Assembly: GCA_000613065.1 (NCBI GenBank)
Contig: CBZS010000767.1
Span: 1-39,683, forward strand
Direction of reading: 5' to 3'
Length of the DNA stretch: 39,683 nt
Source of the DNA: Richelia intracellularis
GTDB taxonomy: Bacteria; Cyanobacteriota; Cyanobacteriia; Cyanobacteriales; Nostocaceae
The notes under the pieces are model-generated. The model was not told the origin of the DNA. It saw only the letters and a program-made list of their open reading frames with translations, and did not search any database. How positions within the stretch are numbered: the first letter of the stretch is position 1; each line of letters begins with the position of its first letter. The position numbers and the translations under genes were made by a program. Below are positions 3,857 to 38,668 of this stretch, piece by piece.

Positions 3857-3961
3857 ACCTATCTCATATTCTGACTCTTGAAAAATTGGGATTCTCCCTT
3901 ATTTATGGATTGGGTGGGTAACTGGTACTCACCCACACTCTTGATGAATGTTAAATTATTT

Positions 3962-5708
3962 CGGTGCGACTCTTTTAGTAAGACGGGCAGTGGAACTTAG
4001 ACACGTATTGGAAGAGGTGGAGAGGTAGTAGAACAAAGAGGTTTGCTTTGAGAACTTTCTTGCTCAAAGGAATACCACTAGAGTACAAAGCCAGGTGATT
4101 GGGTTTATGTTCTTGTTGTAGATGAAACTGCCAATACTCATCCCAATCGCCACTGATGTATAAAGAACCCAGGGGTAAAACAGCCTCAGCACCCCTCATG
4201 GTCCATCTAGCCCCAGTGATATCCATCCTGTCTTTAATCAGGTGGCGACAAGCACCCTCAATCACCCCCGTGGCCATGGGGAATCCAGCTTTTAAGTAAT
4301 CGTCATATTTGAGGTATTTGGCATTGTTAAGTAAATATCTAGCACAGGTATCCACGGGTTTACGTTCTTGGGGGGTGAGTTTGGGTAAAGTCGCACTGCG
4401 GCACATACCTGGGGCAACTGAACTTAATTTACCTTCAAGGATAAGCTGTAAACGTTTGCTCACCCAACCTTCTGTCTGTGTTGAAGTCTGAAAATAAAAG
4501 ACAAATGCAGCTTTCCACAAATACTCAATCACATGGATAATATCTAGGACAATTGTTAAGTTGAGATTGTGTTTTTTTGCAAATTTATTGAGTAAGGATA
4601 ATTGTTTCTTATTGCCATCAACTAAGGCACAGAAACGTTTGTGTTTGTTTTGCTCACGGAAGATTGCCTCATCAAAGGCTTCTGAAATAAGCTTTTTGGG
4701 CTCTTTGGCTAAAGAAGCCCAAACACGCTTACCAATTGGTCGAGGTCGGTTAATTTTCCTATCTTCATCGGATGGGTTAACGATTTTTTGGTGTGTACGT
4801 ACAAAGAAATTAATTGTATAAACACTAGCTACTGTTGCCATTCGCTTTGCGTTGTCCTTTTCACCCTTTGTTAAGGGTTTGTTTAACTTTTTGCTTGAAG
4901 CTAAGGGTGGTTTTTGAGTATTGCTACATAAGTCAGATGTTCGCAATACAACATCCTTCACGTCCGGGCTAATTACGACTATTTCTCCTGTGTCTTGCAA
5001 CTGTTTTGACTGAGCTTGTTGCTGGTGGTAGAAATCATCAAAATCTGAAGCACTATGGTAAGCCAGTTCTTCTGCTTGTCGCTTACCTATTTTGGCTGCT
5101 GTTGTTTTTTCTATGATTGCTGTTGTTTCTCTAAATTCCGAACGGGCTACTTCTATTGCTACTCGCTGTCTTAGTCCATGAGAATATTGCTCTGCTGGTA
5201 GATTAAACTTCCCATCCAAAGGAAATAGCGTATTTATCTTTCTTCCTCCATAACCGATTAAATTGGCGATTACTGTGCCAAATAATGTGGTTCATTTCCG
5301 TGACAATTTTTTCTTGTGTGTTCTGTTTACTGAGTCTGTACCTGCACACTCTCCCTCTATTTCATATTTACTGCCTTTATCAAAATATCTTTGTTTGTAA
5401 CAACCGTCTCAATAGTTCCTATCCATTCTCAAGTAACTTACTCTCTATCTGGGAGTGTTCTAACCCACAAATGCTGTCTGAGTTTAAGCAACTAACTATC
5501 TTTTCAAATACTTCTCGTGCTTCTGACCAAAACATACCTTGATTTGATTTTGATGTAGATCCTTGCATAGGCAATGGAACTGTTCCTGTTTTTTCACTTT
5601 TTACAAGCCAATTCCATCAAGTACATTTTTGGCTGTTAATACTACTGTGGTTGACTTGTCATTTATTATTCTTATATCATACTCCGTACTACCAAAAGAG
5701 TCGCACCC
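3962..5708 (-). mobile_element. ISKra4-family insertion sequence, copy 1 (full length, degraded)
   Basis: Its terminal inverted repeats are visible: the left end reads (c)GGTGCGACTCTTTTAGTA and the right end, reversed, reads GGGTGCGACTCTTTTGGTA. The element is about 1747 bp with one transposase gene on the minus strand. The flanks AAATTATTT and TCTTCATTT do not form a convincing duplication, so the surroundings have probably been rearranged since insertion. Two shorter derivatives (29573-30691 and 37910-38668) and a 45-bp end fragment (22140-22183) lie elsewhere in the window. Confidence 0.85.
3975..5568 (-). pseudogene. ISKra4-family transposase, degraded
   Basis: The longest open stretch (414 codons, 3975-5219) contains family features such as 'ALVDGNKKQLSLL', 'IVLDIIHVIEYLWKAAFVFY', 'ATGVIEGACRHLIKDRMD' and 'GARWTMRGAEAVLPL'. 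The true N-terminus probably begins at the ATG at 5568 (MQGSTSKSNQGMFWSEAREV). Between there and 5219 the frame is broken by stops and shifts: 'SRK*TTLFG' here corresponds to 'SRKLTILFG' in copy 3, a TTG-to-TGA change. This copy is therefore probably no longer an autonomous transposase, although its C-terminal two thirds look nearly intact. Family assignment comes from remembered sequence features. Confidence 0.8.
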
Positions 5709-5944: not shown

Positions 5945-6850
5945 CTTGTCACCAATGGTGTAAACCCGATACAACACTACAAAATGGACGTGGGGTTGAT
6001 AGAACTAGGAGATGCTGCAGATTTTATTGTGGTGAATAACCTACAAGACTTTGTAGTTAATTCTACTTACTGTCAGGGGATATTCCTGACAACAGATGGT
6101 CAATCATTACTGCCATCTGTACCTGTGACACCTATGAAAAAATTTGCTGCCGAGGAAATATTGACATCGGATTTGCACCTACCTGCTGCGGGTAAAACTG
6201 TTAGAGTGATCGCAGTTGAGGATGGACAGCTAATTACCACAGAAAAACATTTACCTGTTTATATTGAGCATGGGGAAGTGGCTGCTCATTTAAAGGCAGA
6301 TGTGCTGAAACTTGTCGTAGTCAATCGTTATCAAACCGCACCTCCAAGAGTAGCATTAGTTCATAATTTTAGATTGCAACGGGGAGCAATCCCTGCTTCT
6401 GTTGGCGATGATTCCCATAATATTGTGGCCGTAGGGACGACGGATGAGGAAATTTGTGCGGCAATGAATGGAATAATTCAAGTTAAGGGAGGGATTGCAG
6501 TTGGTGAAGCTAATTCTGTAGAGGTCTTGCCCTTGCCAATCGCTCTATTAATTGCTGCAGATGACGGTTATGGTGTGGCACAAAAATATGCCCATTTACA
6601 TAATAGGGCAAAAGAATTAAGTTCCCTACTTATCGCCCCATTTATGACCCTTTCATTTATGGCATTATTAGTGATTCCATAACTGAAGTTGAGCGTTCGC
6701 GGTTTGTTTGATGGTAATAAGTTTGGCGTTGCATAAATGCGGGATGAATTAGGGTTTGAAACCATTGAGAAATCGTTGAAAATTTAGTGAAATCATCCCC
6801 TGATTCAGCAACGCCATAAGTTTCAGTTTCTACCCTTGTGGGTGGATTAG
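5945..6850 (+). pseudogene. ade: Adenine deaminase, 3' half, interrupted
   Basis: Codons from about 5948 read 'NPIQHYKMDVGLIELGDAAD', typical of the metal-dependent hydrolase just after its catalytic barrel. They continue through 'HNFRLQRGAIPASVGDDSHN', 'VGTTDEEICAAMNGII' and 'APFMTLSFMALLVIP', the conserved C-terminal domain of adenine deaminase (adenine to hypoxanthine plus ammonia). The metal-binding N-terminal half is missing. An in-frame TAA follows 'LLVIP' at 6680-6682, after which the frame continues 'LKLSVRGLFDGNKF'. A 91-bp repeat (6725-6815) then interrupts it. Removing the repeat and one copy of its 8-bp duplication restores 'NKFQFLPLWVD' and a stop at 6848-6850, the usual end of the enzyme. 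The gene is non-functional. Confidence 0.85.
6725..6815 (+). repeat. 91-bp MITE-like repeat, copy 3, inside ade
   Basis: A canonical copy from GGCGTTGCATAAATGCGGG to CAGCAACGCC. It is flanked by a perfect 8-bp duplication, ATAAGTTT, at 6717-6724 and 6816-6823. Virtual excision restores the reading frame of the surrounding adenine deaminase pseudogene, which shows directly that the repeat arrived by insertion. Confidence 0.95.
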
Positions 6851-15997: not shown

Positions 15998-16297
15998 TTA
16001 TGAGTGAGATTTAAGTAAGATAGTTAACAGTTATTAGTCAATAGTTTAATTCTCTCCCATATCTTCCTCTCCTCTGCTCCTCGTATTGCTTGGTTTCCCT
16101 TCTAAATTCTAAACCACATTCCGTAATTCAACTTGAATTACAAATAAATTACAAGCAAAATAAAAACACAATAATCAGAATGATTAATAATATAGAGTAC
16201 AGAACGAATATATTTTAAAAATCAATTAATTAAACAGAATAAATTTGACCATAAGATTGGTAATATGAGCACTAAAAAATTGAGGAGCAATAAATCT
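15998..16297. other. AT-rich spacer before an ISAs1 element
   Basis: This 300-bp stretch follows the CysQ-like gene. It contains no reading frame or repeat that I can support. It is the left flank of the ISAs1 element. Confidence 0.5.
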
Positions 16298-16319
16298 CAG
16301 GGTAAGCGCATCTCAAATT

Positions 16320-17465
16320 CTATTGACAAGCGGGTTGAAAGGTCTCATCATCATGTTGGGATAAAAAAGCAGTAAAAACAGTCAGCATATAATTATTATC
16401 CATCGCGGCTCGATTAGCTTTTTGGCCATTACTACGTTTCAAAGATTGCTCTAGGTTTAAAGCATTAAGAGCTATTCGCCACAGAAGTGCTAAGTTTTGT
16501 GGAGCATGAGCAGTAGGGAGACGACAAGCATCTTCAAAAAAAATGACATCTAAAGTCCAATGCAACCCATTTTCCACACCCGAATGAAGACGAATCAATT
16601 GTCCTAACTTATGAGCATCACAATTTAATCTAGTTAGATAAAACTGAACTTCAGGGGTTGTTTGATTCCAAAGATGTGGTAAGCGCACAACCATGACAAA
16701 CCATTTAAGACCAACCCAATTGTCTTGGTTATGCAAAGTTTGCACTTAAGAAATAGGAATATACTAAATTTGACGTTTTTCAGTACGATGATGACCTTTC
16801 TCTACCCGTTTATCATAACTATGGATAATACCTTTAAAGCCTTGAGAAAACTGTTGCTAAAAGCAATTTTTCACTTGTCCGTAAAGTGTAGGATGATTAG
16901 CTTTGAGTGCTAAAACATAATCTGCTTTTGCATTAAAGATTTGGAATGCAATTGCTGTTTCCGTAGCCATGGCATGAATATTAATAATAAATCCAGCCAT
17001 ATTTAATAATTCCAAGAATGCAGGGATTCCTGTAATTTCATTCGATTTCTCGTTTTGTTTTATTTGTCCGAAAACAAGACGATGTTCACTCGACCATGCA
17101 CTAACTAGATATAACGCTGATTTAGCCTGTTCTTTATGATAGGAACCTTTGAGGATCTTAGCATCAATGGGAATTATCTCTGCTCCTGGGGCTTCAACTA
17201 TTGATTCTACCCAACGTCGAAAGCATCGCTCAAATAGTTTTGTGTTAATGGGTTCAAACACCCGTCGAAAGGTATCTGCACTTGGGATGCCCCTGGTAAA
17301 GCTAAAAACTGTTCCAACCAGTGGTATTTTCTCAATCCATAATTTTCCATGTCCTCCCATCTCTTACCTCCTGCAATCACTGATAGTATTCCAATGATTA
17401 AAATATCTGTTAAGGAATGGACACGGGTTCTTTCTACACGTGGGTCTTCGATCTCACTAAAAACT
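16320..17465 (-). pseudogene. ISAs1-family transposase (DDE), broken
   Basis: The frame reads FSEIEDPRVERTRVHSLTD from about 17460, then 'GGKRWEDMENYGLRKY'. A frameshift near 17285-17300 moves the reading to 'GIPSADTFRRVFEP', 'IIPIDAKILKGSY', 'LVSAWSSEHRLVFGQ' and 'ADYVLALKANHPTLYG', all ISAs1 hallmarks. In the same frame TAG follows 'QVKNCF', another TAG follows 'TEKRQI' and a TAA follows 'YIPIS'. The C-terminal part then resumes with 'DNWVGLKWFVMVVR' and 'GVENGLHWTLDVIFFEDACR'. One frameshift and three nonsense codons make it non-functional. The N-terminal start is missing, replaced by the hairpin at 17448-17492. Confidence 0.88.
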
Positions 17466-17492
17466 AATGATATTAGTTTTTAGTGAGATCGA
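17448..17492. repeat. Perfect 21-bp inverted repeat with 3-base loop
   Basis: The arms 17448-17468 and 17472-17492 are exact complements (core ATCTCACTAAAAACTAA and its reverse) around the loop GAT. The left arm encodes the transposase residues FSEIE on the minus strand; the right arm is an inverted copy of it. This looks like an inverted-duplication breakpoint that removed the transposase start. It is a very stable hairpin at DNA or RNA level. Confidence 0.85.
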
Positions 17493-17500
17493 GTGTTCCA

Positions 17501-17625
17501 GCAACTGGGGAAGATTGGGTTGCGTAGGGGAGTGCCAGGTAGGGGTATGAGTGTTTATTAGTCTTACTCAAGGTCTTGATGCCCCTACCTGGCCCACGTA
17601 ATCTAGGGAAGCGTTCCCCAGTTGC
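17501..17625. repeat. Nested inverted repeats inside the ISAs1 element
   Basis: The outer arms GCAACTGGGGAA (17501-17512) and TTCCCCAGTTGC (17614-17625) are perfect complements. The inner arms GCCAGGTAGGGGTAT (17534-17548) and ATGCCCCTACCTGGC (17579-17593) pair with one G/T-type mismatch. The 125-base segment could fold as one long stem with an inner arm and a ~30-base loop. No protein is encoded. It may be a palindromic repeat of the Nostoc intergenic type that inserted into the IS. Confidence 0.7.
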
Positions 17626-17761
17626 GTCAACTTTTTTTGGCGATGCCCCTCCAGTTCTCGCCCAAAGGGGGTTGGCGTTCGCACTTGACAATCAAGACAG
17701 ACCCTACCATTATGTACAACAATCTGTGATTTTCACTACAAAATTAGATGCGCTTACCCTG

Positions 17762-19120
17762 TGAAGGCTTGGACAAAATCTTAGACAAACTATATGATGC
17801 ATGCAGGATTAATGGAAATTTTTATCCAAGTCCCACTATCAGCAGCAGATAGATTTGGAGTGAAAATGGACAGCTTCCACTTGGATTCAAGTTGATTTCA
17901 TGTACATGGGGATTGTGCTGATGCTACTGATGATAAAGCATCAGCACAATCAGGATTAATTACAATTACATATGGTTCTTCTAGAGACCAGCGACCAGAT
18001 TTGAAACAATTTATCCTTGACTTGATGTGGAGTGGTGATGGAGATATTCCTTTATATTTAAGAGTTGCAGATGGTAATTAAGTCTATTTTGCCATATTTG
18101 GAAGACTTATGGCAGATTTCCACAAATAATGGCAAATTAATGCTTTATTTATTGCGGATGCAGCCCTTTACACTGAAGACAATTTGCAGATGATAGTCTC
18201 ATTAAGATGGGTATCTGGAGTTCCTGCAACCCTAACAGCCGCAAAATAACTATTAGAAAAGAACAGTATTGATGCATTTGTACCAAATAAAATTCCAGGA
18301 TATCGTATTGCCCCCTGTTGTAATGATTCTGGTGGTGTGCGACAACGGTGCCTAGTGATATAAAGTCAAGCCCGTAAACAATGTGACTTAAAACAACTGG
18401 AAAAACAAAGGTGTAACCAAAAAATATACCCAGGCACAATCCAAACTACGAAAATTGTGTCAATAGGAATTTGCATGTGCCGAAGATGCATTCAATGCAG
18501 CCAAATTACTTGAGAGTCAGTTGCTATATCATCAACTTGCAAATATTGAAGTTATTGAGGATGGTCAACACCGGTGACGTGGTAAAGCTTGTAAGGATTC
18601 TCAACCTACCCTAATTTCCCATATAAAAGCCGAATTTGTACCCAAATAAACTGCAATTACCATTGCCACAGAACAAGCTGACAGGTTTATTCTTGCCACC
18701 AATGTTGTTGATGCCGACAAACTTAGCAACGAAGATGTTTTACCTGAATATAAGGCACAACAATCTACAGAACTTAGTTTTGGGTTTATCAAAGACCCAT
18801 TGTTTTTTACTTCCACTGTGTTTCTAAATTCAAGGAAAAGAGTGGCGGCTTTGGCAATGGTTATGGGTTTGTATTTGCTAGTTTACAGCCTAGGTCACAG
18901 GGCATTACGCCAATCTTTAAAACTAGGCTCCCAAACAATTCAAAATCAGTTAGGTAAACCAACTGCCAATCCTAATTTAGGTTGGGTGTTTCAATGTTTC
19001 ATGTCAATTCATTTATTAATGTTCGCTTTTTTGAAACAGATGTCCAACCTCAGTGAACAGCGGTGCTGGATTCTACAGTTTTTTGGTGCTCCCTGTCGTA
19101 AATATTATCTTCTTTGCTAA
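17762..19120 (+). pseudogene. IS1634-type (IS4 superfamily) transposase, 5'-truncated and decayed
   Basis: The reading starts mid-protein at the ISAs1 right end with 'LDKILDKLYD'. It continues 'PLSAADRFGVKMDSFHLDSS', 'TYGSSRDQRPDLKQFILDLM', 'SGDGDIPLYLRVADGN', 'LFIADAALYTEDNLQM' and 'LRWVSGVPATLTAAK'. After several shifts comes the C-terminal block 'RFILATNVVDADKLSNEDV', 'GFIKDPLFFTSTVF', 'RVAALAMVMGLYLLVYSLG' and a final 'APCRKYYLLC' with a stop at 19118-19120. In-frame stops occur after 'DSS', 'ADGN' and 'TAAK' among others, with frameshifts near 18400-18800. This is dead. It may have been truncated by the neighbouring ISAs1 insertion, since its missing 5' part is not found on the far side. 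Confidence 0.82.
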
Positions 19121-19183
19121 CTAACCTGCGGAATATGGGATATATTAAAATCTATTCAGAATAATCTGGCTGGCAAAAACCTT

Positions 19184-20843: not shown

Positions 20844-20916
20844 GGGGAATTAGCTCATTTGGTAGAGTACTGCGATCGCACCGCAGAGGCGAGGGGTTCG
20901 AATCCCCTATTCTCCA
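20844..20916 (+). tRNA. tRNA-Ala (anticodon CGC)
   Basis: The cloverleaf folds fully. Acceptor GGGGAAT pairs with ATTCTCC, including the G3-U70 wobble pair that identifies alanine tRNAs. D-arm GCTC/GAGT, anticodon stem CTGCG/CGCAG with loop ATCGCAC (anticodon CGC), and T-arm AGGGG/CCCCT with loop TTCGAAT are all present. The discriminator is A and no CCA is encoded. The HIP1 octamer GCGATCGC sits across the anticodon stem and loop. Confidence 0.95.
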
Positions 20917-20918
20917 TA

Positions 20919-20968
20919 TCTACATTAAATTCTTTTTGTCAGTTTTAAATAATTATTGTCCAGTTTGA
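20919..20968 (+). mobile_element. Orphan transposon end like that of the Tn7-like remnant
   Basis: It starts (TC)TACATTAAAT two bases after the tRNA-Ala discriminator, then reads TTTTTGTCA and ATTGTCCA. The first ten bases and the nine-base TTTTTGTCA are identical to the end found downstream of tRNA-Val (27687 onward), and the remainder aligns with one 1-base gap. No transposition gene follows; an IS1182-type relic does. I read it as the surviving end of a second, otherwise lost insertion. Confidence 0.6.
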
Positions 20969-23617: not shown

Positions 23618-24110
23618 AGGGAACTCGTTGGTTATTAATTATACTAAGACACTTCAAAAATCGGCGTTGCTAATTCATCCCCTGATTCAGCAACGCCAAA
23701 AAATCAATTTTTATGTAGTGCTAATAATAACTATTATAGCTTTAGTAATTAGTTGGAAGTGACATAAGAGACTGCCCACATACTTTAAATTGAAAATCTA
23801 ATCGTAAGGTGATTTATGAAAATACTTGGACCAAGAGATTGTCAACTTAAGGAAACTAATTTTCACAGCGAGTAGGGAAAGTCATCATAGCCTAGGCTTT
23901 CTTGTTCCCACTGTTTAGCAGGATATACAGCATTTCTCAAGTACGTGAGGTACAACTCATAATGCTTTGATGCAAAATAAAATGTACCTCATAAACTTGC
24001 AATCTGCTGTGTAGGGTTTTTCAGGAGTCACATGATTTCATAAAAACAATGCCATTCTGTATCCTTTTTTCAATTCCATGTTTTTAAAAGCAGATTGTTA
24101 TTGCTTCTTA
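23618..24110. other. Intergenic region with one short repeat
   Basis: The only recognisable item in this 493-bp stretch is the 35-bp repeat at 23663-23697. The remainder has no open frame or RNA-like fold that I can support, and it ends at the left inverted repeat of an IS402-type element. Confidence 0.5.
23663..23697 (-). repeat. 35-bp short form of the MITE-like repeat, copy A
   Basis: GGCGTTGCTAATTCATCCC leads to CTGATTCAGCAACGCC: both termini of the 91-bp family with the 56-bp interior missing. Flanks CAAAAATC (23655-23662) and AAAAAATC (23698-23705) match at 7 of 8 bases, so this short form also looks like a product of transposition. Confidence 0.8.
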
Positions 24111-25026
24111 GAGGATGTTTTAAAAGTCGAATTGAGTTACAAATCATAGAAGTCCCCTGACCATGATACGTATCATTGCAATATAGATTAAAGTCTCAGA
24201 AGTTTCAGGTAGCCTTTCATATTCCTTACTTAATCTTCTACACCAATTGAGCGACCCGAAAGTTCGTTGTACAACCCAAGGTTTTGGTAAAAGGGTAAAA
24301 CCCTTATTTTCTAAGGGTCTGAGAGCCACTTCCACAATCCAACGAAAAACATCGATTATCCAGTGGGCAAAATCTTCCCCCGAGATCCTCCATCCAGATA
24401 GTGTGCAGTCTTTTAACTTTATCTTTCATCTGATAAACCTGCCAGAACGTTCACGTTTAATTTAGCCCCTGCACGTTCTGGCACTCTTTCAGAAGTAACC
24501 AAGACTCGCAAAACTAGTCCTAACAAGTCAACCGTAATAAATCGCTTACGTCCATGTATTTGTTTTCCTGGGTCGAAACCAACATCCGTACAAATCATGG
24601 TTGCGGTTTAAACTGATTGGCTATCAAAGGCTGCTTCTAATGGACTTGGTTCTCGACTGGCTGCGACCCGAACCCATTGATATAGTTTTTGATGAACCTG
24701 AAGCCAAGTACGGTCTTTACCCCATCTTCTGAAATAGCCATAGACTGTAGACCAAGGTGGTAAATCTCCTGGTAATGCCCGCCATGTAGATCCTTGACAC
24801 AGTAGGTATCAAATCGCGTTTACTACTGGGTACATACATGTTTTTGTACGTGGACGACCACCTGCTTTTTCCTCTGGAAACAGCTGTGGGATTAACTCCC
24901 ACTCTTCCCACGTTAAATTGCTAGGATAATTCTTAGTCATTTGCTCACGGGGTGCTGTTTTCTATAATTCTCAGCATATGCCTTATGAGCTTTTTTATGA
25001 TACCTCCCACCTTTTAAAACATCCTC
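24111..25026 (-). mobile_element. IS5-family (IS402/IS1031-like) insertion sequence, degraded
   Basis: It is bounded by perfect 16-bp inverted repeats GAGGATGTTTTAAAAG (24111-24126) and its complement (25011-25026), flanked on both sides by TTA, consistent with a 3-bp target duplication. The 916-bp length suits a single-transposase IS5-type element. The transposase is broken, so it could move only with help in trans. Confidence 0.88.
24137..24940 (-). pseudogene. IS402/IS1031-like transposase, broken
   Basis: It starts at ATG 24940 with 'NLTWEEWELIPQLFPEEK' and 'GGRPRTKT', the usual N-terminus. It continues 'LCQGSTWRALPGDLPPWSTV', 'YGYFRRWGKDRTW', 'EAAFDSQSV' (first DDE aspartate region), 'DVGFDPGKQIHGRKRFITVD' and 'GLVLRVLVTSERVPERAGA'. 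In-frame stops follow 'NAI' and 'SQSV', and frameshifts break the last third. Non-functional. Confidence 0.82.
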
Positions 25027-25035
25027 TTAAGGATA

Positions 25036-25984: not shown

Positions 25985-27382
25985 CGGGAGGCAGTACCAG
26001 TTATATCTAATACAGGGTTGAAACATGTGCCGTTTAAAGAAAAAGCTTTTAACATATTAAAAACTGAGTTAAAAAAATGCGCTGGAGATAATTCCGTTAG
26101 CAAAATTGAAGGGGAAATAGTTTTGACGCGATTAAAATAATTACGGCGTAAACAAGGCTCACCGGCGACTTTATCAGAACTAAGGGATACTGTTGTAGAT
26201 ATATTCCCAGAATTTAGCGAAAAAGTTCTCAAACGAGGTTAAAAATCCAATGAACCACCGGGAATCTTCAGTCACGTAAAATGGATAGAAATATTTATTA
26301 CTAGTGCTGCAGGTTTTGTTTAGGTTGTTAACTTACCCTATACCATGATTTGCTGGCCCATTGCTAAGACTGCTCCCCTCCTGTGATTACTTAGTTTTAT
26401 TAGTATGAATAATAACTACAAAGGTTCTATTCAAGCCTTAAAACAAGCAGATCAACTAATTAATAGAGCCACAAGTTAAGCAGACATTGAATTGGGTGGG
26501 AAACAAGCCAAAAAAGCTCAGAGACATTTAGACCAATTACCAGCTTGGTTTCTAGGTTACTATTCTCGGACTTCTTGTAATTTGTTTCGTTGTCAGTGTA
26601 AATTCATCAAAGGTGAATTTGGCGTTGCATAAGTGCGGGATGAATTAGCCTTTGAAACCATTAATAAATCGTTGAAAATTTAGTGAAATCATCCCCTCAT
26701 TCAGCAACGCCCAAAATACTTTTTCATCCCTGCAAGCGGCTGCATCAGGGATGAAAATAGCCAAACAAAAATATGAACAAGCCAATAACTTTGAAGAGAA
26801 ACAACAAGCGTTCGCATCTGTTCAAACAGTACTCGATGCATTGACTGAAATCTCCACGATTACACTAGCAAGAAATAACCCCAGAATAAAACTTGCTGCT
26901 TACAGAAGATATTTTACCAAAGTTTCCCGCAGTGTTGCAGTTAGCCTTCGCACAAATAATGTAATTGCGTCGGCTAGATTATTTGCTATGCAAGCGGCTC
27001 AAATGTCCCAAAAAGCTCCCCATTCAGAGCAAAAATGGCAACAAATAGTCAAAATGTAGACACAAGCAATTCAAAGATTTGAACGGGTGAGATGAGACGA
27101 GCCTAATTACTTAGAAGCTCAACATCTCTAGTCACTTATCAAAGTAATCTAGGTATTATCCAAGCTAGAACGCAAGAATAAATATAATCAGTCCACCCCT
27201 TAAAACAAGCTAACCAAAAGATGCAACAGTTAATTGCATCTCCCCCTAGTGATGAAAATAAATTCAAAGGTAAATTACAGGGAGTTATCAATCTTTTGCG
27301 AACAATAAAGCCAAGGAAAACGGCTTATACTGAGGCACAAAAATTTCTATCTTATGCTCAGAAACAATTGCAAAGTTTATAG
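25985..27382 (+). pseudogene. Broken gene for a cyanobacterial membrane/coiled-coil protein of unknown function
   Basis: The readable pieces, in order, are: 'EAVPVISNTGLKHVPFKEKA' from 25988; 'SELRDTVVDIFPEFSEKVLK'; a hydrophobic span 'FVVVNLPY' with 'MICWPIAKTAPLL'; 'NNNYKGSIQALKQADQLINR'; 'GGKQAKKAQRHLDQLPAWFL'; then a 91-bp repeat; then 'GMKIAKQKYEQANNFEEKQ', 'VLDALTEISTITLARNNPR', 'ARLFAMQAAQMSQKAP' and 'EAQKFLSYAQKQLQSL' before TAG at 27380-27382. I recall a conserved hypothetical family of filamentous cyanobacteria with this layout (one N-terminal membrane span, long helical repeats), but its function is unknown. There are several stops and frameshifts. The first ~120 bases are the least certain part. 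Confidence 0.65.
26621..26711 (+). repeat. 91-bp MITE-like repeat, copy 4
   Basis: A full-length copy (GGCGTTGCATAAGTGCGGG to CAGCAACGCC) inside the broken membrane/coiled-coil gene. Flanks GTGAATTT and CAAAATAC do not match, so the sequence on one side has been lost or exchanged since insertion. Confidence 0.88.
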
Positions 27383-27571: not shown

Positions 27572-27645
27572 GGACGTATAGCTCAGTTGGTTAGAGTGCT
27601 ATGTTGACATCGTAGAGGTCACTGGTTCGAATCCAGTTACGTCCA
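27572..27645 (+). tRNA. tRNA-Val (anticodon GAC)
   Basis: A complete cloverleaf: acceptor GGACGTA/TACGTCC, D-arm GCTC/GAGT, anticodon stem CTATG/CGTAG with loop TTGACAT (anticodon GAC) and T-arm ACTGG/CCAGT with loop TTCGAAT. The stem has a G-C to G-T type closing pair only. The discriminator is A and CCA is not encoded. A Tn7-like transposon remnant begins about 42 bp downstream. Confidence 0.95.
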
Positions 27646-27652
27646 TTGAAAT

Positions 27653-27682
27653 TTTGTACAACAACATTTTGTACAACAACAT
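27653..27682 (+). repeat. Two tandem copies of a 15-bp unit
   Basis: TTTGTACAACAACAT occurs twice back to back between tRNA-Val and the transposon end. Each unit carries TGTACA, the terminal hexamer I remember for type V-K transposons, so this may be part of the end or a duplicated junction. Confidence 0.7.
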
Positions 27683-29572
27683 ATGGTTTACATTAAATCG
27701 TTTTTGTCAAATATTAAAGAATTACTGTCCATTTGAAATTAAGACCTAAAGCCCTGAAAAGAGAATTTCACTATTAACTCAGGGTTTTTAGACCCAAAAT
27801 TACTATTTAATAAAAATTAAATTAAATAATGACATAAATAATCTAAAGTGTTAAAGCAGATGATCACATATTTTTTTGAGGTTCTTTTATGGAGTAAAAA
27901 CGTATAGGCAGAAAACTTCAGGAGTTCTTAGAGAAACAAGAGGTCGCCACAAGTTCACCAGAACAGCCCAAAGACTTGTTAGAGAATGACGATTCCCCCG
28001 AATATCTCAAGAAATTGAAATTGATAGATGCTATCCGCCAAGCCCCTAACAAAGTCCCTCGTAGAGATGCGAACGCAGATGGAGCAAAAGCTCTTGGTAA
28101 AAGTAACCGAACTATCAAGGGAATGGTAGAAAAGCTAGAACAGGTAGGAATTGCGACTCTCGCAGTTGGGCGTAAGGATAAGGGACAGTATCGTATTGTT
28201 AAGGAATGCCATGATTTTGTTATCTACCTTTATAAATGGGGTAATAGAGAAGGTTATCGGATAAATAAAAATCAGATTAATGTGTACTTAACTGCTTTGG
28301 CTGACAAAGGCGAGAGGTTATGGTAGAAGAAGTATGATGAAATTTTCAAAAGATACTCTCAGGTGCGAGAGGATTTAGTAGTAGCGAAGCACACTTCCTA
28401 TGTCACTGTTTATAAGGTAATCAATTCCTATTCAGAAAATAAAAATCAGAAAACTCACCATCCCGGTTCACCCATAGAAGGACAAATTATTCAAACAACA
28501 GAAGGTATTTTATAAATTACCCACAGGAACCAGGTTTGGCAGATAGACCATACTAAATTAGATATTCTGTTAGTTGACGAAGAAGATGGCACAGTTATTG
28601 GTCGCCCATACATTACGTTCGTAATGGATAGCGATTCTGGTTGTGTCACAGGTTTCTATCTAGGTTTTGAATCTACTGGTTCCCATGAAGTTGGTTTAGC
28701 TCTGCGTCATGCAATTTTACGAAACCACTATAGAACAGAGTACGAGCTGCAAGAAACATGGCATCTTTATGGGATTCCAGAATATATAATGACAGACCGT
28801 GCCAAGGAATTTAAGTCAGAACATTTAAGACAAGTTTCCTTACAATTCTGTTTCATGGGAAGTTTGCATAAATTTCCCCAAGCAGGTGGCTTAGTTGAAA
28901 CTATATTTGACACCATTAATAAAGAAGTTTTGAAGAAATATGGTGGATATACTGGCTCAAAGACTGAGGAACATCCTCCTGAAGCAGAAAAAACTGCTTG
29001 GATAACTCTCCATAAATTATAGAAAAGATTAGTAAGATACTTTGTAGATAACTACAATCAGTCGGATTATCCAAGGGGAAAAAATCAAAAACGTATTGAA
29101 CGCTGGAAATCAGGATTTTTACTGGAAGAGCCACAAGTTATCAATGAACGTGAACTAGATATTTGTTTAATGAAAGTTGCGTATCGCAATGTGGAAAAAT
29201 ATGGTTTTGTTAACTTTCAGGGTTGAGTATATTAAGGAGATTGCCTGATAATTTATGAAGGAAGGTAAGCAAGTTTCCTTAAGGTATGACAAGGCTAATA
29301 TTGTCACTGTTCTTGCTTATACTAAACCTAGTAACCGTGAAGCAGGAGAGTCTCTTGGTGTTATTAAAGCTAGATATTCTGAACGAAAGAAGATATCTCT
29401 GGCTGAATTAAATCATATTAAGAAAAAATTGCATTATCAAGGCAAGGAAGTTGACAACTCCTTTATTTTGATCGATCGATTATCTATATGGGAGGATGTT
29501 GAACAAAGCCGCAAGGATAGGCGCAGAAAATGCCGGAAAAAAGCTCAATAAAAACACGAAGTAAAATCCAAT

Positions 29573-30691
29573 GGGTGGGACTCTTTTAGTAAGACGGGTA
29601 ATGGAACTTAGACAGGTATTGGAAGAGGTGGAGCGGTAGTAGAACAACGAGCTTTGAGAACTTGATTGCTCAAAGGAATACCACTAAAGTACAAAGCCAG
29701 GTGATTGGGTTTATGTTCTTGTTGTAGATGAAACTGCCAATACTCATCCCAATGGCCACTGATGTATAAAGAACCCAGGGAAAAAACAGCCTCAGCATCC
29801 CTCATGGTCCATCTACCCTCAGTGATATCCATCCTGTCATTAATCAGGTGGCGACAAGCACCCTCAATCACCCCCGTGGCCATGGGGAATCCAGCTGTTA
29901 AGTAATCATCATAATATTTGAGGGATTTGGCATTGTTAAGTAAATATCTAGCACTGGTATCCACGGGTTTACGTTCTTGGGGGGTGAGCTTGGGTAAAGT
30001 CGTATTCCGGCGCATACCTGGGGCAACTGAACTTGATTTACCTTCAAGGATAAGCTGTAAACGTTTGCTCTCCCAAGCTTCTGCCTGTGTTCAAGTCTGA
30101 TAAAAAAAGGCAAATGCAGCTTTCCACAAATACTCAATCACATGGATAATATCACTGTCTTAGTTCATCAGAATATTGCTGTGATGGTAGATTAAACTCC
30201 CCATCCAAAGGAAATAGCGTATTTATCTTTCTTCCACCATAACCGATTCTATTGGCGATTATTGTGCCAAATAATGTGGTCAATTTCCGCGACAATTTTT
30301 TCTTGTGTGTTCTGTTTACTGATTCTGTGCCTGCACATTCTCCCTCTAGTTCATCTTGAGTGCGTTTATCAAAATATCTTTGTTTGTAACAACCGTCTCA
30401 ATAGTTCCTATCCATTCTCAAGTAACTTACTCTCTATCTGGGAGTGTTCTAACCCACAAATGCTGTCTGAGTGGAACCAAGTAACTATCTGTTCAAATAG
30501 TTCTCGTGTTTGTGATCAAAACATACCTTGATTTGATGTAGATGCTTGCATAGGGTGTGGAACTTTTCCTGTTTTTTCACTTTTTACAAGCCAATTCCAT
30601 CAAGTACATTTTTAGCTGTCAATACTACTCTGGTTGACTTGTGATTTATTCTTCTTATATCGTACCCCGTACGACTAAAAGAGTTGCACCC
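29573..30691 (-). mobile_element. ISKra4 derivative, copy 2, internally deleted, inserted in tnsB
   Basis: It starts GGGTGGGACTCTTTTAGTA and ends ACTAAAAGAGTTGCACCC. It is flanked by a perfect 9-bp duplication AAATCCAAT (29564-29572 and 30692-30700) inside the tnsB reading frame. At 1119 bp it lacks about 630 bp of the transposase that copy 1 has. The junction joins the 'DIIHVIEYL' region directly to the 'YSHGLRQ' region near 30145-30165. It cannot make transposase and must have been moved in trans. Confidence 0.9.
29608..30145 (-). pseudogene. Truncated ISKra4 transposase in copy 2
   Basis: Only the C-terminal third is readable: 'TLPKLTPQERKPVDTSARYL', 'ATGVIEGACRHLINDRMDIT' and 'QFHLQQEHKPNHLALY', with a frame break near 30010-30095. 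The central region with 'ALVDGNKKQL' is absent. It is a relic within a non-autonomous element. Confidence 0.8.
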
Positions 30692-30933
30692 AAATCCAAT
30701 GAATCGAAGATAGTCGAATTATTTCCTGAAAATGCTACACCGGAGGAAATAGCAACATGGCAAGAAAATTTAACATCTACTCCGGACACAGCTTCCCAAA
30801 ACGTTGTAGATTCAATAGATAAGCAAGTTAAGCAAAGTAAACCTGATACCAATCAAAGAGCCAAAACTAGACGGCGACCCAAAGTAGGTATGAAAGATTG
30901 GAACCAGTTTATGAACCATAATTGGTAAGTAGA

Positions 30934-31457
30934 ATGTCGGAAACTAACTTAGCTCATGCCAACGAAAAATTTCCAGAACTTCCTAATAAACGTTTTCAAT
31001 CGCCTGAAGAGTTCCGGCGATCGCCAGAAGCACAAGCTGAGGTTGAGCGCATTGGTAAAGCTAACACTTATTTCCTCCTAGATTGGGATACAAAATTATT
31101 TGACTGGTTTGATGATCAAGGTGATGGCAAACTCTGTAGTTACGTTACATCTACTACAGGTTATGGTTTCTTAAAAGCCTGTCAACTGTACAGGACGCAA
31201 TAGCTTAAGCGAAGGGGAACGTTGTTGGCAATTCCAGCGACTGTAATTTACGCGAAAATATATCAGCATCGTGGTCCTACAGATTTATACTGCTCTATTT
31301 TGGAAAAAATTGGTCATCCACTTTCTCATGTAGAAACATTACGAGATTTGCGATCGCGTACATGGGGAACCCTTAGAGAGTATGATGTCAGAATATTAAT
31401 CATTGGTAATGCAGACTACCTAACTTTAGAACCATTGAATGAGTTCATTGATATTTT
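30934..31457 (+). pseudogene. tnsC: TnsC-like AAA+ ATPase regulator, truncated
   Basis: The ATG at 30934 lies 5 bp after the tnsB stop. The frame reads MSETNLAHANEKFPELPNKR, 'SPEAQAEVERIGKANTYFLL' and 'WFDDQGDGKLCSYVTSTTGY', stop (TAG) at 31201, then 'TVIYAKIYQHRGPTDLYCSI', 'LRDLRSRTWGTLREYDVRIL' and 'IIGNADYL', and is cut by a 91-bp repeat after 'NEFIDI'. Spacing and flanking motifs match TnsC, which forms a filament linking target recognition to TnsB. However, the Walker A position reads 'TTGYGFLKA' instead of GxxxxGKT, and Walker B reads 'LIIGNAD' instead of LIIDEAD. The C-terminal half is missing. Non-functional. Confidence 0.72.
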
Positions 31458-31548
31458 GGCGTTGCAGAATAAGGGGATGATTTCACTAAATTTTCAACGA
31501 TTTATCAATGGTTTCAAACCCTAATTCATCCCGCACTTATGCAACGCG
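31458..31548 (-). repeat. 91-bp MITE-like repeat, copy 5, truncating tnsC
   Basis: A reverse-orientation copy (GGCGTTGCAGAATAAGGGG to TTATGCAACGCG). Flanks GATATTTT and TTGGGGTA do not match. tnsC coding runs up to the left side, but nothing like tnsC follows on the right, so the sequence to the right was exchanged or deleted at this repeat. Confidence 0.88.
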
Positions 31549-31637: not shown

Positions 31638-32015
31638 ATGACCATTGTTACATCACAAGAAATTGCCCGGTTCCGTTCTTTATTGGCAGATTATCCCCCA
31701 GCTTTGGAAGCACTGGACTTAATAGAGGATTGCGAGGGAGACTTAGAAGATGCAGCCATGACTCTAGCCATTCGTATTGGACAGGAACCAGGAGCGGAGA
31801 ATTCCGAATGGTTAGACGGCTTCGCAAAAAAATGGCGTCCTGTTATTTGCCAAGCTGAATTTAGGGAAGATCTAGTGAATGCTAACTTTCAAGGAATAAT
31901 GATGTACTTACAGCAAATTTCTAGTTTTCCTAAATTTTTAGCAGCACCAATTCTTATCTATGCTTTTAAACAAGGTTGGAATAATTTTTGCCAGCCATTA
32001 GATACAATTAAATAG
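31638..32015 (+). CDS. Conserved hypothetical protein
   Basis: A 125-residue soluble, acidic protein: 'EIARFRSLLADYPPALEALD', 'DCEGDLEDAAMTLAIRIGQE', 'GFAKKWRPVICQAEFREDLV' and a hydrophobic helix 'FLAAPILIYAFKQGWNNF' near the end. I think similar short proteins are widespread in cyanobacteria, but I know no function for them. The stop codon lies in the 8-bp target duplication of a 91-bp repeat, so that insertion leaves the protein unchanged. It probably lies outside the Tn7-like remnant. Confidence 0.75.
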   Translation: MTIVTSQEIARFRSLLADYPPALEALDLIEDCEGDLEDAAMTLAIRIGQEPGAENSEWLDGFAKKWRPVICQAEFREDLVNANFQGIMMYLQQISSFPKFLAAPILIYAFKQGWNNFCQPLDTIK

Positions 32016-32106
32016 GACGTTGCATAAGTGCGGGATGAATTAGCGTTTGAAACCATTGAGAAATAGTTGAAAATTTAGTGAAATCATCCCCTTATTCTGC
32101 AACGCC
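32016..32106 (+). repeat. 91-bp MITE-like repeat, copy 6, at a stop codon
   Basis: It starts GACGTTGCATAAGTGCGGG (second base altered) and ends CTGCAACGCC. A perfect 8-bp duplication TTAAATAG lies at 32008-32015 and 32107-32114. The left duplication contains the TAG stop of the upstream gene. Confidence 0.93.
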
Positions 32107-35140: not shown

Positions 35141-35512
35141 TAAGCAAATCAGCCAGAGAATGTAAGTTCCTGGAAATAACTAAAAAGGAATAAATTGCTG
35201 TGAGAAATGGTATCTAGGCTACATCAAAAGTAGAAGTAGCTCCCTTTTGAGTTTATGGCAACATCGTCTTAGCGACCCCTAATATAATTTCACGGCGTTG
35301 CATAAGTGCGGGATGAATTAGCGTTTGAAACCATTGAAAAATCGTTGAAAATTTAGTGAAATCATTCCCTGATTCAGCAACGCCAATTTCACTTATCTAT
35401 TTGTGATGCAACCAAATTAAGGCAAGTATTCCACCCCTACATATCGACACCCCTTTTCTGTCAGTTTCCGAAAATTATGAATAAAAGAAAACTCTGAAAG
35501 GAAAGTAGGACA
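35141..35512. other. Intergenic region with a 91-bp repeat
   Basis: These 372 bp follow hhoA. The only recognisable element is the 91-bp repeat at 35294-35384; the remainder is the left flank of an IS701-type relic whose outer end I cannot fix. Confidence 0.6.
35294..35384 (+). repeat. 91-bp MITE-like repeat, copy 7
   Basis: A canonical copy from GGCGTTGCATAAGTGCGGG to CAGCAACGCC. A perfect 8-bp target duplication AATTTCAC lies at 35286-35293 and 35385-35392, which marks a well-preserved insertion. Confidence 0.95.
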
Positions 35513-37843: not shown

Positions 37844-37909
37844 AAATCATAAATTAATAAACAATATTACTTGAGAAACCAGGTAAAGTCTGATATTAAA
37901 AATAGATTT

Positions 37910-38668
37910 GGGTGCGACTCTTTTAGTAAGACGGGGAGTGGAACTTAGACAGGCATTGGAAGAGGTGGAGGGATAGTAGAACAACGAGCTTTGAGAACTT
38001 GCTTGATCAAAGGAATACCACTAGAGTACAAAGCCAGGTGGTTGCGTTTATGTTCTTGTTGTAAATCAAACTGCCAATACTCATCCCAATCGCCACTGAT
38101 GTATAAACAACCCAGGGGTAAAGCAGCCTCAGAACCCCTGATGGTCCATCTAGCCCCAGTGATATCCATGCTGTCTTTAATCTGGTGGCGACAAGCACTC
38201 TCAATCACCTCCGTGGCGATGGGGAATCCAGCTTTTAAGTAATCCTCATATTTGAGCTATTTGGCATTGTTAAGTAAATATCTAGCACAGGTATCCACGG
38301 GTTTACGTTGTTGCGGGGTGAGTTTCGGTAAAGTCGCACTGCGGTGCATACCTGGGGCAACAGAACTTGATTTACCTTCAAGGATAAGCTGTAAACGTTT
38401 GCTCTCCCTAGCTTCTGCCTGTGTTGAACTCTGAGAATAAAAGACAAATGCAGCTTTCCACAAATACTCAATCACATGGATAATAATATCCCTGTCTGAG
38501 TCCATGAGAATATTGCTGTACTGGTAGATTAAACTCCCCATCCAAAGGAAATAGTGTATTTATCTTTGTTTCTCCATAACCGATTCTATTGGCGATTACT
38601 GTGCCAAATAATATGGTCAATTTCCGCGACAATTTTTTCTTGTGTGTTCTGTTTACTGAGTCTGTGCC
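37910..38668 (-). mobile_element. ISKra4 derivative, copy 3, truncated by an IS4 element
   Basis: The left end is GGGTGCGACTCTTTTAGTA. The transposase relic on the minus strand shows 'GGWR'-region degenerations of 'ARWTIRGSEAALPLG', 'VAPGMHRSATLPKLTPQQR' and 'IIHVIEYLWKAAFVFYSQ', then jumps straight to 'YSHGLRQ', the same internal deletion as copy 2. The copy stops at about 38668 where a different element begins, so its right end is lost. It retains 'SRKLTILFG', the version without the TGA of copy 1. Confidence 0.82.

Follow-up and report, generated by a model that had tools for sequence, protein, structure and literature searches.

The described systems closest to the element reported here are ShCAST (Tn7747) of Scytonema hofmannii, a TnsA-less type V-K CRISPR-associated transposon (CAST) with Cas12k and a small TniQ, and a V-K subclade carried by Scytonema sp. 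NIES-4073, Nostoc sp. CMAA1605, Nostoc sp. KVJ20, Rhizonema sp. PD37 and the genomes G330, G289, G210 and G111 (G, C and L numbers designate genomes compared, contigs and extracted loci, respectively). According to the available portion of PMC9938897, V-K elements usually have their left end, the one with anchor spacer, CRISPR array and cas12k, behind a tRNA gene pointing at the element; the right end is at the far side, with tnsB directed away from it, and in all cases but one the protospacer-adjacent motif (PAM) is 46-82 nt away from the left end. The same excerpts already report degenerated cas12k genes near V-K regulators. Here, we studied a stretch of 39,683 nt from Richelia intracellularis (contig CBZS010000767.1, considered in full and called the window; its own genome is labelled G000), which contains a degraded member of this known family. 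Two transposon ends, a target-site duplication in inverted arrangement and the anchor spacers of relatives at tRNA-Ala(CGC) led us to the view that the window is likely to hold the remains of one V-K CAST which homed to tRNA-Ala(CGC) and was later split by inversion. No report of such a fossil in this genome was found in the literature, covered as titles and beginnings of abstracts, with subscription papers and preprints mostly outside.

The region 27687-30928 comprises a genuine transposon end followed by a tnsB pseudogene, which is interrupted by in-frame stops, a frameshift and an insertion sequence (IS). In a PDB alignment, the catalytic residues of its product (D in WQIDHT, D in IMTDRA and E in GGLVET) aligned with D205, D287 and E321 of ShTnsB, the DDE residues named in the part of PMC9527255 available. 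The joined TnsB matched ShCAST TnsB best (E 4e-84), followed by the TnsB of Tn6677, a type I-F element (1.7e-25), and of Tn7 (1.4e-9), and Pfam placed Mu-transpos_C over and rve under the cut-off. The tnsC remnant starts 5 bp past the tnsB stop, covers residues 1-179 of about 310 and breaks off around 31457, where a repeat of about 94 nt resembling a miniature inverted-repeat transposable element (MITE) begins. ShTnsC sequences were its sole PDB matches at E<=1 (2.7e-8), and AAA_22 and TniB both exceeded the Pfam cut-off. Searches of the own genome recovered no further TnsB and no other TnsC. Since only 202 bp separate the transposon end from the tnsB start, there is no room for TnsA. Thus, the initial annotation, made from the letters alone, was right in describing a TnsB-like DDE transposase with its three catalytic positions, a TnsC-like gene 5 bp behind it (start at 30934) and the lack of tnsA; the stops, the frameshift, the IS and the truncated tnsC likewise agree with its picture of a decayed element, and its notion of an eroding genome is supported.

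The remnant resembles ShCAST in being TnsA-less, in a TnsB that aligned over nearly the full length with equal DDE residues, and in a related TnsC; Cas12k and a small TniQ, the other features of ShCAST, were seen in relatives of the window element. ShCAST is nevertheless much farther away than the subclade, its TnsB scoring 286 bits versus about 830 bits for the closest subclade relatives, and differs from the window copy, which is dead and split. It also differs in TnsC, as the subclade protein lacks the Walker A lysine (SATGSGLLK) and the acidic residues of Walker B (IGNAD or VGNAD). These changes, noticed at window 30934-31457, were present in 15/15 aligned rows of the clade, representing 14 distinct loci (L031, L033, L035/L102, L103-L110, L112, L114 and L116), and are therefore a feature of the clade and not a product of decay. 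V-K TnsC proteins without canonical Walker motifs are mentioned in the excerpts of PMC11406308 at hand.

Searching 388 genomes of the order with TnsB (E<=1e-20) gave a match in 101. Among these, G111, G289, G361 and G210 have stop-free homologues about 70% identical; the homologues of G330 and G333 are partial or decayed. A TnsB tree of 58 rows, 50 of them different and several being one locus entered twice, was built by a quick search with SH-aLRT (Shimodaira-Hasegawa-like approximate likelihood ratio test) as the sole support; it placed the window TnsB in clades of 15 and 29 (support 100 each) and in a clade of 23 (support 97). Within the clade of 29, 14 rows had cas12k on the same contig and 14 did not (contig ends, or not seen), the labels having been assigned by us from search results with remnants counted as cas12k. 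Outside the Cas12k-linked set were six distant TnsB rows (28-32% identical) without an assigned element type, I-B and I-D not having been entered under those names. A scan of contigs for named loci, which is not a census, yielded at least 18, including Rhizonema, Calothrix, Nostoc, Scytonema and Dendronalium; the gene order was tnsB-tnsC-tniQ, and among the named loci listed tnsC was present in 18/18 and tniQ in 16/18, Cas12k lying beyond most of these flanks. Cas12k itself was detected in 22/22 genomes searched (17 genomes of the named loci listed, plus G111, G289, G210, G330 and G333), and in 12 of the 22 it was of the clade type, 66-100% identical to the G330 query. Judging by contig numbers, clade Cas12k and clade tnsB share a contig in Scytonema NIES-4073, Nostoc CMAA1605, Nostoc KVJ20 and G330; the G289 and G111 loci have an N-terminal Cas12k remnant only, and the G210 contig has no Cas12k. 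PADLOC identified the G330 protein as Cas12k (1.2e-243) and the 170-aa TniQ of G361 as a V-K TniQ (8.7e-67). TnsB of the subclade is up to 72% identical to that of the window, and its members have the tnsB-side end found in the window (undetected in the NIES-4073 locus). In most of them tniQ is retained, and in some a full cas12k with its array; the window copy, by contrast, consists of tnsB and half of tnsC, apart from its other end.

An element that is Cas-less and Tn7-like, reaching tRNA genes by TnsD or TniQ as the I-B2 and I-D relatives do and unrelated to Cas12k, would account for the lack of a cas gene in the window, and such elements also use tRNA genes (PMC11406308 and PMC10293859, in the parts available). 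We give this possibility almost no credence: the tnsB clade is Cas12k-bearing, relatives have the 170-aa V-K TniQ and anchor spacers, and I-B2 and I-D elements have a fused TnsA-TnsB (PMC11406308, same excerpts), TnsA having no room in the element studied here. PF06527, the sole TnsD search made of the own genome, gave no match, but the control also matched nothing. Taken together, a TnsB of the V-K clade, the lack of TnsA and a V-K-related tnsC directly behind tnsB allow the element to be assigned by ancestry to the type V-K CASTs with high confidence, and we regard its family as settled. The V-K assignment of the initial annotation is thus borne out by the PDB matches, the TnsB tree and the Cas12k-bearing relatives; neither a grouping with Cas-less Tn5053/Tn7 elements nor an end belonging merely to a tRNA terminator was observed. 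Apart from this, V-K-like TnsB was also recovered at L014/L126 (G130) and L021/L127 (G113), in genomes outside the listed Cas12k matches at 1e-20, which are possibly Cas-less relatives or reflect a limit of the search.

To describe the transposon ends, a motif of 39 positions with a spacer of 3-5 bases between its halves was written from the ends of relatives, which hence match it by construction; the window was excluded from the motif, though we had already seen its ends. The motif matched the window exactly twice, at 20919 and 27687, with 5/39 mismatches each, the best of 100 first-order Markov shuffles having 12. An ungapped scan (up to 13/41 mismatches allowed; L035/L102 match out of register) detected the 20919 end only, because the 27687 end carries one additional base between its halves (TTTACATTAAATCGTTTTTGTCAAATATTAAAGAATTACTGTCC versus TGTCCATTAAATAATTATTGTCC...TTAAAGAATTATTGTCC in relatives). 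The end at 20919, absent from the initial annotation, lies 2 bp past tRNA-Ala(CGC) and 54 nt from a GTA PAM, in the same placement and orientation as in G210 (L037). The 5 bp outside the two ends, CCATA and TATGG, are reverse complements of each other, which corresponds to the 5-bp target-site duplication of V-K elements in an inverted arrangement, and CCATA is the CCA terminus of tRNA-Ala(CGC) followed by TA. An end was detected in 18 distinct relatives, and in 4 of these (L045, L106, L107 and L108) TATGG likewise precedes the tnsB end; with CATGG in L109 and AATGG in L114 one of these three pentamers is found in 6/18; in 2 of the 20 distinct loci no end was detected. L108 and the window share 11 bases, ACAACATATGG, 5 of which are the duplication.

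The same tRNA gene is used by relatives. Among the subclade, G330, G289, G210 and G111 have their elements near tRNA-Ala(CGC), and when nine genomes were searched for the HAD gene adjoining this tRNA, the four of them holding a clade tnsB, which are the genomes just named, had the two genes at most about 40 kb apart (HAD, like cysQ-like, methyltransferase, SDR and CrtISO-like below, is what we take the gene to be from the appearance of its sequence). Anchor spacers were searched as 17-mers matching the tRNA behind GTN, with mismatched tRNA/locus pairs as the control (9-14 of 17), and were found at 8/10 tRNA sites. Those for tRNA-Ala(CGC) were in L037 (G210, 17/17), L085 (G330, 16/17) and L101 (G111, 16/17); in L085 and L101 the anchor is that of the tRNA-proximal element, which is of another branch in G330 and G111. 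The clade's own G330 element stands farther from the tRNA in the array and carries a 17/17 anchor for that genome's tRNA-Ala(CGC). Other anchors matched tRNA-Pro (L043, 17/17; L041, 15/17), tRNA-Cys (L047, 17/17) and tRNA-Ala(GGC) (L044, 15/17); the two scores of 15/17 barely exceed the control, given its range. No anchor spacer was found in L033 (best 11/17) or L046 (best 12/17). For the window tRNA-Ala(CGC), the protospacer position given is borrowed from relatives, in which the anchor spacers match this very part of the tRNA. RNA guidance of the window copy itself is thus suggested by its relatives and by the geometry of the site.

The initial annotation had placed the end 42 bp behind tRNA-Val(GAC) and proposed this gene as the homing site. 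The end at 27687 stands, the gap being 41 bp as the tRNA ends at 27645, and so does the link to tRNA homing; tRNA-Val(GAC) as the attachment site does not, in view of the orientation, the second end, the flanks and the relatives. Homing to tRNA-Val(GAC) in reversed orientation, with the tRNA-Ala end left by another, lost element and CCATA/TATGG matching by chance, appears unlikely. A PAM within the tRNA would be reachable from an end at this distance, and tRNA-Val(GAC) is a V-K site elsewhere: 190 genomes matched, and in 10/29 other family loci fetched (L061, L065, L069, L071, L074-L076 and L079-L081) a V-K-type end like TGTACAGTGAC was seen by eye no more than about 12 bp past the tRNA; an anchor of at least 14/17 occurred in 1/29 (L075, 17/17). 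However, the orientation runs contrary to the published rule (PMC9938897, excerpts) and to the relatives, as the tRNA is opposite the tnsB side in L033, L037, L041, L043, L044 and L047 and tRNA-Val(GAC) of the window is at the tnsB side; L046 has an end at a tRNA, but with a mere tnsB fragment. Moreover, the 3' end of tRNA-Val lacks CCATA, TATGG, CATGG or AATGG at the tnsB end of relatives marks an insertion just past a CCA-ending tRNA, and the window has no tRNA-Val anchor. We therefore rejected tRNA-Val(GAC) as the target mainly on its orientation, the 5-bp flank and the relatives. The V-K layout, with the Cas12k-side end behind the tRNA and the tnsB end distal, is present at tRNA-Ala(CGC) if both ends are of one element, and not at tRNA-Val. 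There is good, though not complete, evidence that the attachment site was tRNA-Ala(CGC), and the closeness to tRNA-Val is probably secondary. A transposon end near a tRNA gene is easily misread: it speaks for V-K homing only where the Cas12k side of the element is the one next to the tRNA.

Features of the decayed V-K element in the window and of its surroundings
Feature	Position	Strand	Remarks
tRNA-Ala(CGC), probable target gene	20844..20916	+	GTA PAM 20862-20864; protospacer GAGTACTGCGATCGCAC 20865-20881
Target-site duplication copy CCATA, beside Cas12k-side end	20914..20918	+	reverse complement of 27682-27686
Cas12k-side end (termed left end in PMC9938897, available part)	20919..20961	+	interior lost; 5/39 mismatches to end motif
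tRNA-Val(GAC), neighbour of tnsB-side end, probably not target	27572..27645	+	
Target-site duplication copy TATGG, beside tnsB-side end	27682..27686	+	
tnsB-side end (right end)	27687..27730	+	5/39 mismatches to end motif
tnsB pseudogene, part 1	27889..29229	+	one frame, 5 in-frame stops, DDE residues present
tnsB pseudogene, part 2	~29255..29572	+	different frame
IS inside tnsB	29572..30692	-	27-nt inverted arms 29572-29598 / 30666-30692
tnsB pseudogene, C-terminal part	~30692..30928	+	60-71% identity to closest relatives
tnsC, N-terminal part	30934..~31457	+	~179 residues, one in-frame stop, truncated
~94-nt MITE-like repeat	31454..31547	-	inverted partner 26622-26715; tnsC ends here
Further ~94-nt repeat copies	1497-1588, 1772-1868, 6725-6815, 32010-32106, 35294-35384		

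We propose the following course of events. A Cas12k complex with a short anchor CRISPR RNA would have recognised the 5' half of tRNA-Ala(CGC) beside the GTA PAM, and TnsB, TnsC and TniQ would have inserted the element 2 bp past the tRNA and 54 nt from the PAM, with duplication of CCATA, so that the Cas12k-side end came to lie against tRNA-Ala and tnsB at the far end. Rearrangements at repeats may then have inverted the tnsB half along with the piece bearing tRNA-Val and the SDR gene. The Cas12k half would have been lost, stops, frameshift and IS would have ruined tnsB, and the end of tnsC would have disappeared at the MITE-like repeat. That both ends stem from a single insertion is probable from the shared duplication, and the number and mechanism of the inversions are suggested by the order of the genes.

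This order was compared with that of G406, of the same genus, where one contig carries the cysQ-like gene, tRNA-Ala(CGC), HAD and the methyltransferase, and another the genes found at 31638, 32232 and 32806 of the window, SDR, tRNA-Val and the CrtISO-like gene. There, tRNA-Val adjoins the same SDR gene, with no CAST. The window differs in that its methyltransferase-HAD-tRNA-Ala block has the inverse orientation relative to the cysQ-like gene, with SDR and tRNA-Val located between the two transposon ends. Two inversions at repeated stretches would produce this arrangement, with candidate breakpoints at 16297-19142, between 20962 and 25029 (24107-25029 is repeated on C647) and at the MITE-like repeat at 31454. 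A single inversion between the MITE-like pair 26622-26715 / 31454-31547 was rejected, since the relative orientation of SDR and tRNA-Val is equal in G406 and the window; for the same reason, the inverted piece must be longer than the interval between this pair. Convergent tRNA-Ala(CGC) and tRNA-Val(GAC) neighbours were seen neither in 29 family loci (flanks up to 1.5 kb) nor in the G406 stretches. The first 16 kb of C647, with the CrtISO-like gene, were searched for another half of the tRNA-Val site and gave no end motif and no CAST protein. The inverted arrangement might be an assembly error at repeats, in which case tRNA-Ala(CGC) would simply have beside it, in one piece, a decayed V-K element of the ordinary kind. 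The assembly is a draft, and MITE-like and IS repeats do lie between the two halves of the element, yet repeat searches show no long repeat at the junction of tRNA-Val and the end, and the SDR/tRNA-Val part is not random, because the two are neighbours in G406 as well; we hold such an error to be very improbable.

The split could also have been made by the element, through intramolecular replicative transposition. In a TnsA-less V-K element, this process reverses the stretch that separates element and target and places a copy at either border, so that the original duplication becomes divided between one end of each copy. The topology (tRNA-Ala CCATA/end ... TATGG/end-tnsB, inverted) fits, and V-K elements have neither TnsA nor a resolvase, ShCAST forming cointegrates according to the excerpts of PMC11406308. 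This mechanism nevertheless predicts two extra ends and a second duplication, which were not found, the window scan giving two ends only, and repeats near the proposed breakpoints explain the inversions without it; it seems distinctly unlikely. If true, a natural V-K CAST without TnsA and resolvase would have inverted a stretch of host chromosome while moving. The handling of cointegrates in native hosts, without TnsA and resolvase, is named as unknown in the same excerpts of PMC11406308, and one could look for it in decayed V-K copies whose halves are inverted.

Several points weigh against one CAST at tRNA-Ala(CGC) split by inversion. A 5-bp match by itself has a chance of 1 in 1024, and both flanks of the G210 element disagree with each other, as do those of G289. 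The 36 bp separating TATGG from tRNA-Val are unexplained, and TGTACA is found 9 bp past tRNA-Val, at the position where other genomes carry a V-K end. G406 shows no trace of an element at either tRNA, stretches of 19.9 and 18.5 kb having given neither the end motif nor a CAST protein. Compared with this genome, at least two rearrangements are required, and the contig comes from a draft assembly of 857 contigs. Finally, tniQ, cas12k and a CRISPR array, which the initial annotation had also not seen, were not found in searches of the window, nor was an anchor spacer, the best matches (10/17 for tRNA-Ala and 12/17 for tRNA-Val) being inside the control range. The V-K filing of the remnant goes by ancestry because tniQ and cas12k of this copy were not found; as tnsC itself is truncated, loss is the likely reason for the absence of tniQ. 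If one homed and split element is nonetheless accepted, as we think likely, the record of V-K homing in the form of ends, duplication and, on another contig, an anchor spacer can be read after the death of the machinery, and extinct V-K insertions can be mapped in eroding genomes.

That anchor spacer belongs to a second decayed V-K CAST of the own genome (contig C212, L052 10981-16072). One Cas12k locus was found in G000, at C212:24980-26866, with 9 stops, followed by three repeats like TnsB sites and a Cas12k-side end beside tRNA-Val(UAC); the anchor spacer there matches tRNA-Val(UAC) at 16/17 behind a GTA PAM. On the opposite strand, C212:23194-23385 holds a TniQ fragment of 61 aa with 67-69% identity to TniQ of the window clade. 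The Cas12k is nearer to other branches (47% identity with a G328 protein, 54-61% with a fragment of a second Cas12k from G330) than to that of the clade (37-42%, G330 protein). The search of the rest of the genome suggested in the initial annotation thus recovered a decayed Cas12k, a tRNA-Val(UAC) anchor and a piece of TniQ, but the Cas12k is of another branch; the end motif of the window clade was absent from the C212 stretches scanned, as expected for another branch. Like the window element, the C212 CAST is decayed and broken up by the same kind of repeats; unlike it, it keeps a Cas12k pseudogene, a Cas12k-side end and the anchor spacer.

Some further observations concern other tRNA sites. 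In G330 (C1, about 3973700-4009000; L045 and L085), an array of V-K CASTs with different TnsB branches, all in the same orientation, extends from one tRNA-Ala(CGC), which bears on target immunity between V-K branches; TATGG lies there between the tnsB end and the Cas12k-side end of the next element. A decayed element of the clade with Cas12k remnants was found beside tRNA-Ala(GGC) in G333 (L044, C1:1352419-1365724), the site of the 15/17 anchor given above. Behind tRNA-Val of the window, TGTACA occurs twice in 41 bp, perhaps as a relic. The MITE-like repeat of about 94 nt (GGCGTTGCATAAGTGCGGGATGAATT...) occurs at least seven times in the window, with more copies on C212, and the IS within tnsB contains a broken transposase-like open reading frame (29608-30015) and has homologous stretches at 3952-5259 and 37909-38586.

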